A stretch of DNA of 36,084 bases, from positions 1-36,084 of the forward strand of contig CAKZJF010000003.1 in assembly GCA_936941205.1 (NCBI GenBank). The letters run 5' to 3'. The notes below the pieces were generated by a model. That model did no database searches and was not told the DNA's origin. It worked only from the letters and a program-made list of their open reading frames with translations. Source of the DNA: an uncultured Candidatus Altimarinota bacterium (GTDB lineage Bacteria; Patescibacteriota; Gracilibacteria; BD1-5; UBA2023). This document shows, piece after piece, positions 978-4,259 of this stretch. The translations under genes were made by a program, and so were the position numbers. The first letter of the stretch is position 1. Every line of letters starts with the position of its first letter.

Positions 978-3545
978 TTATGAGATTGTAAGAGTACCAT
1001 TTGTATCTATATCAAGCTCATAGTTTTTCCCTTCTTGTATAGTATTTTGTATTATCGCTTCAGAGAGAGGATTTGTAATCATTCGAGTAATCGTTCGCTT
1101 CAATGGTCGAGCTCAAAATTCAGGATCATAGCCCCTTTGTATAATTGTATCTTTTAGATTCTCAGTAAATGTAAGTGTTATATTTTTTGTCTTAAGAAGA
1201 ATATTAAGTTCCGTCAGAAGGAGAGATACGATATCTCATAGCATATTTTTCTCAAGAGCATTGAAGATAATTATTTCATCAATTCTATTGAGAAATTCTG
1301 TACGAAAATATCATCGAAGAAGCTCAAGCGTTTTTATTTCCCTTTCTCAAGTCGTCATATCTTCTCAGACTAAATGACTCCCTATATTTGATGTCATGAT
1401 GATGATACAATTTGTAAAATTAACAGTTCGTCATTTTCCATCAGTCACTATTCCATCATCAAAGATTTGAAGAAATATATTCCATACATCTTTATGTGCT
1501 TTTTCTACCTCATCAAGGAGTATTACAGAATATGGCTTTCTTCGTACAGCCTCTGTTAATTGTCCTCATTCGTCGTGACCTATATATCATGGAGGTGAAC
1601 CTATCAATCGAGCGATAGAGTGTGATTCCATATATTCACTCATATCGATGCGTATATAGGCATGTGGATCATTCCATAGGGTTTCACAGAGTGCTTTTGC
1701 GGTTTCTGTCTTTCCAACTCCAGTTGGACCGAGAAATAGAAAAGTTCCTATCGGTTTTTTTCCATCAGAAAGACCTGCCTTACTCCTTTTAACAGCACTT
1801 GCAATTTTCTCAAGAGCAGCATCCTGTCCTATTACTCTTTTTCTCAATGATTCTTCAAGATGAATATATTTCTCTTGTTCAGTTTCTATGAGTTTTCCAA
1901 CAGGAATGCCTGTCCATTTACTGATGACACGAGCAATATCTTCTTCACTTACGTGATCTTTGAGAAATCAACCATCTCGCTCCATTTTTTTAAGTTCTTT
2001 TTCAACTTGTAAGAGCTCTTTTTCTTTTGCTGGAATTTCTCCATATCGAAGCTTTGCAGTGAGTCAATAATCTGCTTTCCGTTCTGCATCAAGTGCTTGC
2101 GTTGAAAGAGTTTCTATATCTATCTTTAGCTGTTTTTGGAGATCAATCTTCTTTTTCTCTTGTTCCCAGTTTCCAAGAATTCTCCTATAGGATTCATTCT
2201 TTTCTGTGAGCTCCTTTTCAATAGCTTCAAGTCGGTTTTGCTCTCATTTTTCTTGTTTGAGTGCTGCTTTTTCTATTTCGAGTGTACGAATCTCCTTCTC
2301 CATCTTATCAAGTTCTACTGGTTTTGAAGTGGTGGATATCTTTACACTGGAAGCAGCTTCGTCTATGAGATCAATCGCCTTATCTGGAAGTTTTCTATCT
2401 GGAATGTAACGAATTGCGAGTTCAGTAGCTTGTACAATCGCCTTATCCGTAATGCGGATTCCATGAAAGGTTTCATACCGATCTTTAAGTCATCGTAAGA
2501 TAGCTATAGTATCTTCTTTGCTTGGTTCATCTACTGTCACTGGCTGGAATCTTCGCTCAAGAGCACCATCTTTTTCTATATATTTTCTATATTCTGAAAT
2601 AGTAGTTGCTCCGATTATTTTAATTCTTCCGCGAGCAAGTGCAGGCTTAAGGAGATTACTTGCATCGGCTCATCCTTCTTCATTTCCAGCCCCTACAATA
2701 GTATGAAGCTCATCGATAAATAAAATAATATCTCCTTCTGATTTTTCAATTTCTTCTAGTACTGCTTTTAATCTTTCTTCAAATTCTCATCGATACTTTG
2801 CTCATGCAATAAGCGCAGCAAGATCAAGGGTAAGTATATGCTTGTTCTGAAGCATATCAGGCACCTCTTTTTCGACAATTTTTCTTGCAATTCATTCTAT
2901 AATGGCCGTTTTTCCTACTCCAGGATCTCATATAAGAACTGGATTATTCTTGGTACGTCTTGAGAGAATTTGAATAGTTCGCCTGATCTCATCTTCTCGA
3001 CCGATAACGGGATCAATTTTTCCATTTCGAGCCATCTCAACAAGATCTGTTGTATATTTCTTGAGAGATTCATAGAGATTTTCAGCAGTATTGGATGTTA
3101 CTTTCTTCCCATTTCGAAGTTGTTTTACAGCTCATTCAAACATTTCATACGTAAGAGAACATCATTGAAACAATTGAGCAATACTCGTTCATTTTGAAAG
3201 TATTCCGAGAAAGAGATGTTCTTCGGTTATATAGAGATCACCCATAGATTGTGCAATTTTTTGTGCTTCTCGGAGAATGTTTTGGAGTTCAGAGGAAATG
3301 CTTCCATTCTGAATATTTCCAGAAATCGTAGGCATTTTTCAGAGGAATGATTCACTTTCTTGTAGCAACTTTTTTGGGTCAATTCCAATTCTTTCAAGGA
3401 GGGGAATATTGATACTCTCTTTTGATGAAAGGATTACAAATAATAGGTGTATAGTTTCCAAGTTTGCATGATTTCTTTCTATACGGAGGCCATCACCTTC
3501 AGCGAGTCTTTTTTGAGTGGCGATAGTAAAGTTTTCGTTATTCAT
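978..3545 (-). CDS. clpB: Chaperone ClpB (AAA+ disaggregase)
   Basis: ClpB threads aggregated proteins through a hexameric ring, working with the DnaK system. The protein has 855 residues, the usual ClpB length. An N-terminal Clp-N region starts [23 protein letters not shown]1 has the P-loop [10 protein letters not shown] at about residue 206, where the first Gly is a UGA codon (2928-2930), and a Walker B region [13 protein letters not shown] coiled M-domain follows ([19 protein letters not shown]). NBD2 has [29 protein letters not shown] and the sensor-2 region GYDPEFGARPLKR. The C-terminus is NGTLTIS before TAA 978-980. Many glycines are UGA. The gene is probably under HrcA-type heat-shock control, because a CIRCE-like operator overlaps its promoter. 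Confidence 0.97.
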
Positions 3546-3587
3546 AAGTATGGTATGTTATATAATATTCATCGTTGCTAACTAAAA

Positions 3588-3614
3588 TTAGCACATAAAT
3601 TATATACGTGCTAA
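3588..3614. promoter_or_regulatory. CIRCE-like operator (HrcA site)
   Basis: TTAGCAC and GTGCTAA are separated by exactly 13 nt, the same outer bases and spacing as the CIRCE consensus TTAGCACTC-N9-GAGTGCTAA. The two inner positions of each arm differ (AT and AC instead of TC and GA). A third half-site, TGCTAA at 3576-3581, faces the left arm. CIRCE is the operator of the heat-shock repressor HrcA, and its place over the clpB promoter fits that role. No hrcA gene is in the window. Confidence 0.75.
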
Positions 3615-3627
3615 TATTGAAAGTCAA
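3599..3627 (-). promoter_or_regulatory. Sigma-70 promoter of clpB
   Basis: On the minus strand TTGACT (3627-3622), a 17-nt spacer and a perfect TATAAT (3604-3599) are seen. The expected start of transcription is near 3592. The -10 box lies inside the spacer of the CIRCE-like repeat. Confidence 0.8.
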
Positions 3628-3634
3628 AACTATT

Positions 3635-3661
3635 TTGCCATTTTTTAAAAATTCATACAAT
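3635..3661 (+). promoter_or_regulatory. Likely promoter of the Nudix gene
   Basis: TTGCCA (3635-3640) and TACAAT (3656-3661) have a 15-nt spacer. Transcription would start near 3668, which excludes the GTG at 3663 as the start codon and favours ATG 3687. Confidence 0.45.
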
Positions 3662-3686
3662 CGTGCCAATACTTTTACTGAAGCAT

Positions 3687-4259
3687 ATGCGTTCTCATCC
3701 AAAAATCCCATCCCAAGCCCGGAAAGTTTTTAACGGTATTCGTTGTGAAGTTTATAACTGGGATCAAGAAATGTACGATGGAAGTACTCAGATATTTGAA
3801 CGGATTCGACATATTGATGGTGCCTTTGTTGTGGCATGTACTCCTGATAATCAAATAATCATTACCCATCAAGAACAGCCATTACGTCCAATATTTATCT
3901 CATTACCAGGGGGAACTATTGAGACAGATGAGGATCCGTTATTTTGAGCAAAAAGAGAACTCCTAGAAGAGACAGGATATATATCCGATGAGTTTATTCA
4001 CTGGAAAACAACAGACTATAACATGAGTGTAGTATCCTTTTGTGATTATTATATTGCGAGAAATTGTCAGCATATCCAAGATATTGCCCCTGATTCGGGG
4101 GAGAAAATAGCTTTAAAAATGATTTCATTTGATGAATTTCTTCTTCTTTCGGAAGATTCTCACTTTCAACATCGTGATATTTCTGATGAGCTTTTTCTAG
4201 CACGTCTCTATCCACAAAAAAAAGAACATCTTCGGAAAATGTTCTTTTGAGAGGTATAA
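3687..4259 (+). CDS. Nudix hydrolase, ADP-ribose pyrophosphatase-like
   Basis: Nudix enzymes cleave nucleoside diphosphates linked to another group. The protein has 190 residues. The Nudix box Gx5Ex7REUxEExGU is complete from GTIETDE to RELLEETGY; one residue of the box spacer is a UGA codon (3945-3947), so the motif exists only if UGA is Gly. An N-terminal beta region (ARKVFNGIRCEVYNW, IDGAFVVACTPDNQIIITHQ) resembles ADP-ribose pyrophosphatases, but the substrate cannot be fixed from sequence. GTG 3663 would add eight residues; ATG 3687 is preferred because of the promoter position. A UGA at 4248-4250 precedes the final Glu-Val and TAA. The gene is divergent from clpB and may share its control region. 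Confidence 0.88.
4220..4248. terminator. Terminator hairpin overlapping the Nudix 3' end
   Basis: A perfect 10-bp stem AAAAGAACAT / ATGTTCTTTT closes a 9-nt loop. It lies inside the last codons of the Nudix gene and just past the stop of the opposing gene, so it can end both convergent transcripts. Confidence 0.7.

Follow-up and report, generated by a model that had tools for sequence, protein, structure and literature searches.

The classical CIRCE element has the form TTAGCACTC-N9-GAGTGCTAA, according to the consensus quoted in the available excerpts of PMC7464140 and PMC545781. In the small genomes of Mollicutes, clpB and dnaK are under CIRCE (PMC5138195 and PMC4245973, as excerpted), and the excerpt of PMC4245973 places the elements of M. 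gallisepticum upstream of the promoters of the chaperone genes. The HrcA footprints of Helicobacter and Campylobacter overlap the core promoter and the start site, as given in the excerpted parts of PMC6032397 and PMC7464140. No paper joining HrcA and Gracilibacteria was found, the literature on Gracilibacteria and heat shock offered none on the subject (judged by title), nothing relevant was found for Absconditabacteria, and the sole match found for HrcA and Patescibacteria appears from its listing to concern the oral microbiota. The element described here is an operator of an established type, found in a poorly studied lineage and carrying a lineage variant of the sequence.

The window, that is the whole stretch of 36,084 nt analysed, is contig 3 of a 1.31-Mb genome in 90 contigs, whose genes use TGA as a glycine codon (21 in clpB and 8 in hrcA). 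The clpB gene (minus strand, 978-3545) has 855 codons with TGA read as Gly, and upstream of it a CIRCE-like inverted repeat, the putative HrcA operator of clpB, spans 3588-3614. Read on the plus strand it consists of TTAGCAC (3588-3594), a 13-nt spacer (3595-3607) and GTGCTAA (3608-3614), an exact match to the operator pattern. The clpB promoter, identified by reading the sequence and by a promoter scan, lies on the minus strand with a -35 box TTGACT (3627-3622) and, after 17 nt, a -10 box TATAAT (3604-3599) within the operator spacer, a conserved layout; 11 of 12 consensus bases are matched. The interval 3480-3760 holds two promoter-like matches, a count no higher than in shuffled sequences (mean 1.5, sd 1.5), and the promoter call thus rests on conservation. 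Transcription is predicted to start at 3592-3594 (minus strand), ~7 nt past the end of the -10 box (give or take ~2 nt) and inside the downstream operator arm. A third half-site at 3576-3581, TGCTAA on the plus strand and TTAGCA in the clpB sense, faces the left operator arm across 6 nt. The first-pass annotation had described the repeat, the 17-nt-spaced promoter, the -10 box in the spacer and the third half-site, and its reading was right base for base. On the other side, a divergent Nudix-domain gene runs from 3663 to 4259 on the plus strand, with its start at GTG 3663 or ATG 3687.

The repeat resembles CIRCE in the outer 7 bp of both arms, in its length of 27 nt, in its place before groES-groEL, dnaK and clpB, and in the presence of hrcA in the genome, but differs in the two innermost bp of the arms. 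Compared with the strict form, with its 9-bp arms TTAGCACTC and GAGTGCTAA separated by N9, the clpB site agrees at 14 of 18 bases and does not match, and because the inner TC and GA are absent it was filed as a lineage variant and not as canonical CIRCE. Both inner pairs are kept in none of the 127 operators of the order and neither is kept in 108, which bears out the earlier suggestion of a lineage-specific HrcA site with inner bases unlike the classical ones, with the limit that family f140, outside the order, has also lost both (6/6 weak sites). For groES in the class outside the order, 74 of 109 matches were taken into the comparison, and the 70 operators from these 74 regions keep both TC and GA in 27 cases, one of them in 37 and neither in 6. 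Genomes outside the order with the exact pattern mostly have TC on at least one side, judged by eye among the matches listed. The inner CIRCE bases can be lost across a whole order that retains HrcA. A short HrcA was rejected as the cause of the relaxed inner bases, as the short protein is also found in genomes of the phylum that keep TC and GA (e.g. G182).

A search for hrcA, which had been proposed with the first description of the site, found a single gene with a 232-residue product. The protein scores above the cut-off for PF01628 and matches TIGR00331 at 1.2e-46, under the curated cut-off, over stretches 1-123 and 230-330 of the 338 model positions. These stretches are the N-terminal DNA-binding part and the C-terminal HrcA domain, both present in the protein, and the central ~100 residues (TIGR00331 ~124-229) are absent. 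The nearest solved sequence is that of T. maritima HrcA (1stz), aligned over residues 2-116. A model built for a relative with 72% identity (mean pLDDT 82, pTM 0.54) likewise had 1stz as its best fold match; the two superpose poorly overall (TM 0.44), and the alignment has 324 columns for 232 residues, a surplus that is expected since the central part is missing. In a sample of 30 genomes of the phylum, 27 of the 29 with a match, this one included, have the central gap at about the same place, and in the remaining two the gap is shifted; the short form is thus usual in the sample and compatible with membership of the HrcA family. Of 21 named loci whose HrcA is 47-72% identical to this one, 18 are labelled Candidatus Gracilibacteria. 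Within the order hrcA was found in 56 of 59 genomes; G015, G022 and G056 gave no match, though all three have operators, and their assemblies are possibly incomplete. The number of TGA codons within hrcA ranges from 0 to 16 inside one family (L080-L109), which may point to uneven use of TGA as a glycine codon.

The exact operator pattern occurs at two places in the 1.31-Mb genome, before clpB and before dnaK, and groES-groEL is preceded by an operator with two mismatches; one further place with two mismatches lies within a coding frame. When up to three mismatches were allowed, no excess was seen in the window (1.10 expected) or genome-wide (19 matches vs 56 for the reversed pattern). At one mismatch or fewer, the pattern is present in 58 of the 59 genomes of the order and the reversed control in 6, and across the phylum the exact pattern is found in 100 of 286 genomes and the control pattern in 1. 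One relative, G028, carries five operators at this threshold of one mismatch.

Regions upstream of each gene were read one gene at a time across the genomes of the order. Starts of clpB could be placed in 38 of the 59 genomes, the other 21 giving no match, a partial one or AAA matches of lower score. With up to two mismatches, an operator precedes full-length clpB in 26 of the 27 regions examined, a short clpB lacking the N domain in 10/11, dnaK in 54/57 and groES in 33/49. No operator with up to three mismatches was found before 13/49 groES and 3/57 dnaK genes, which, together with 1/11 short clpB (contig end), were omitted from the layout and folding counts below; in one of the three dnaK regions (L142) the arms are present with a 12-nt spacer. 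In nine relatives (L218-L226) the ClpB match begins at query residue 147-160, yet only 31-175 nt after the operator, so that the protein seems to lack the N domain, and ClpB of L078 resembles this set. The two comparisons proposed in the first-pass annotation, of the regions before groES-groEL and dnaK and of the clpB upstream regions of relatives, both found the element, in this genome and in its relatives, and with hrcA present as well the operator was not refuted. The repeat before clpB is very probably a CIRCE-type operator of HrcA, superimposed on the clpB promoter. As in the HrcA regulon of Mollicutes, clpB and dnaK are among the predicted targets. The excerpted Mollicutes accounts also give lon (and dnaJ_2 in M. 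gallisepticum), whereas this genome has no non-coding operator at up to two mismatches beyond clpB, dnaK and groES-groEL; conversely, groESL of S. melliferum is given there as lacking the element, whereas groESL is a predicted target here. The three genes outline a heat-shock regulon for TGA-recoded, uncultured bacteria of the Gracilibacteria type.

The operators of the order fall into two layouts. In layout A the spacer contains the -10 box and the downstream arm the predicted start, an arrangement seen for clpB in 26/27 cases (22 by script and 4 by eye, of which two fit both patterns and two neither), for short clpB in 10/10 and for groES in 31/36. Layout B has the operator just upstream of the -35 box and accounts for all 54 dnaK operators (two of these regions match the layout-A pattern too), 5/36 groES and 1/27 clpB. 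Of the 60 layout-B operators, 58 are separated from the -35 box by 6-7 nt; the operator centre is ~55 nt ahead of the predicted start, and the spacer end is A-rich. Operator layout tracks the target gene, and HrcA would probably block the core promoter directly in layout A and mask an UP element in layout B. In the class outside the order, the place of the groES operator varies by family (by eye): it lies over the -10 box in f7, f8 and f10 and downstream of it in f139, and it encloses a TTGAC -35 box in f136 and f146.

In the mechanism that we propose, HrcA would cover the strong sigma-70-type clpB promoter at its -10 box and start region and bar RNA polymerase, and heat or protein damage would inactivate HrcA and free clpB. 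groES-groEL would be under the same HrcA with the same layout, as would dnaK, where the repressor would bind immediately before the -35 box, in the position of an UP element. Because GroE raises HrcA binding in other bacteria (PMC6032397, as excerpted), an operator before groESL would complete a feedback loop. We infer binding, repression, heat induction and UP-element masking from these sequence features. The operators of clpB and groES resemble the Helicobacter and Campylobacter footprints in lying over the core promoter and the predicted start site, while in those organisms, according to the same excerpts, HspR acts beside HrcA. The HspR operator HAIR, CTTGAGT-N7-ACTCAAG as quoted in the excerpt of PMC7464140, is absent from the clpB site when the sequence is read directly. 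A position upstream of the -35 box, as in the dnaK layout, is not described for Helicobacter or Campylobacter HrcA in the excerpted parts of PMC6032397 and PMC7464140.

The third half-site requires a separate reading. It had been taken as part of the clpB operator, a claim that did not survive comparison: among the 36 layout-A regions of clpB and short clpB, TTAGCA within 45 nt was found in this genome only and was absent from the other 35, that of the same-genus genome included. The operator as conserved in the order does not include it, and if it has any role, it may best be read as one strand of a 5'-terminal mRNA hairpin, which at clpB would span 3576-3594 (minus strand) and consist of the right operator arm and the third half-site. 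CIRCE affects mRNA stability in B. subtilis, and nothing to the point was found in the literature on mRNA hairpins at CIRCE. For folding, the 45 nt from the arm (layout A) or from the predicted start (layout B) were compared with shuffles, and the 45 nt upstream of the operator served as controls. The clpB hairpin of this genome is borderline, with p 0.045 against shuffles and 0.106 against shuffles with the arm held fixed; when the start was set at the first or third arm base p was 0.070 or 0.050, no hairpin was obtained with a start 2 nt further on, and for a longer stretch 11 of 200 shuffles were equally stable. The chances are about even that the half-site at clpB is an accident. Besides its absence from relatives and the arm-fixed value, this is supported by the ordinary frequency of TTAGCA among permuted hexamers at clpB (mean 0.25 per 36 regions; 35/180 equal or better). 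Against chance, the groES of this genome also has the half-site, in a predicted hairpin with p 0.010 and 0.012 (shuffle and arm-fixed) that contains a G-U pair, and the enrichment at groES spans five genera.

That enrichment amounts to TTAGCA downstream of 6 of the 31 layout-A groES operators, the one in this genome among them, and places the word first among 180 permuted hexamers (permuted mean 0.32; next best 5, TTCGAA). Together with the copy at clpB, it could be taken to mean that the third half-site is a genuine additional half-site for HrcA, serving to strengthen or phase its binding before clpB and groES. We consider this improbable, as the copies at layout-A operators are on one side and in one orientation only (0 upstream, 0 inverted), and none is found downstream of the 60 layout-B operators, around which half-sites elsewhere number two for TTAGCA upstream, one for TGCTAA downstream and one for TGCTAA upstream. 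The distance to the operator also ranges from 3 to 22 nt, and by eye the predicted pairing is kept where the half-site is lost (G009, G030 and G038) and, more weakly, in G012 and G052. A bias to one side and one orientation agrees with pairing between the copies and the right arm in the RNA.

Folding across the order is consistent with such pairing mainly at groES. The mean z was -1.72 for layout-A groES (p<0.05 in 15/31), -2.28 for layout-B groES (3/5), -1.17 for dnaK (15/54), in whose hairpins the operator cannot take part, and -0.41 for clpB (4/37). Controls gave means of -0.19 to -0.26 (-0.55 for layout-B groES) and 22 other consensus promoters a mean of -0.03 (p<0.05 in 1/22), slightly above the clpB values (one-sided p 0.033). 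With the arm held fixed, p<0.05 was reached by 14/31 groES regions, or 7/19 with one genome per genus. The corresponding values for clpB are 4/36 regions and 2/20 genera, the count by genus being no commoner than chance, and a hairpin at clpB across the order was rejected on these counts. The groES signal depends on the arm, since moving the transcript start 4 nt later removes most of it (mean z -0.63, 5/31 with p<0.05, and none for the genes of this genome). The arm is changed in 19 of the 31 groES regions, 7 of them with p<0.05. In G012 and G052 the predicted partner varies with the changed arm, neither being significant alone, and groES of this genome shows such a change as a G-U pair; at least four changed arms (G007, G022, G027 and G048) show little or no pairing, and compensating changes were therefore discarded as proof of a stem. 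In the class outside the order, where 26 of 70 groES operators have layout A, an arm hairpin is unsupported (mean z -0.67 vs -0.28 in controls); the five regions with p<0.05 all belong to family f8, and by eye only the G424 stem is mainly with the arm.

An arm hairpin is plausible, if unproven, in groES of the order. As a tentative idea, which we regard as rather unlikely, the downstream arm of the operator, which would be transcribed first from groES and from clpB of this genome, would pair with a TTAGCA-like copy and form a hairpin cap that stabilises the mRNA or melts with heat, one DNA word serving both repressor and messenger. The reuse of operator arms in mRNA is offered as a testable idea.

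The first-pass annotation had further suggested that the divergent Nudix gene might share the control. The distance from the operator to the Nudix GTG codon is 48 nt, and the gene pair is kept in the same-genus relative, but the neighbour was found in just 2 of 39 clpB loci (38 genomes; upstream reach per locus ~20 nt to 1.5 kb), both in the same genus, and the plus strand of 3480-3760 holds no promoter-like match at the scan threshold, which makes control of the Nudix gene by this operator very unlikely. Hardly any weight can be given to the notion that the repeat is a hairpin of a transcription terminator or attenuator and not a repressor site: a pattern scan does flag 3615-3587 (minus strand) as terminator-like (1 found, 0.2 expected), but the repeat encloses the -10 box of an 11/12 promoter match, the dnaK copy lies upstream of its promoter and would not be transcribed from it, and the arms are conserved base for base. 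In the order, a short 5' hairpin is frequent in dnaK leaders; its sequence varies, and in this genome it is CTTCGA-GAAA-TCGAAG.
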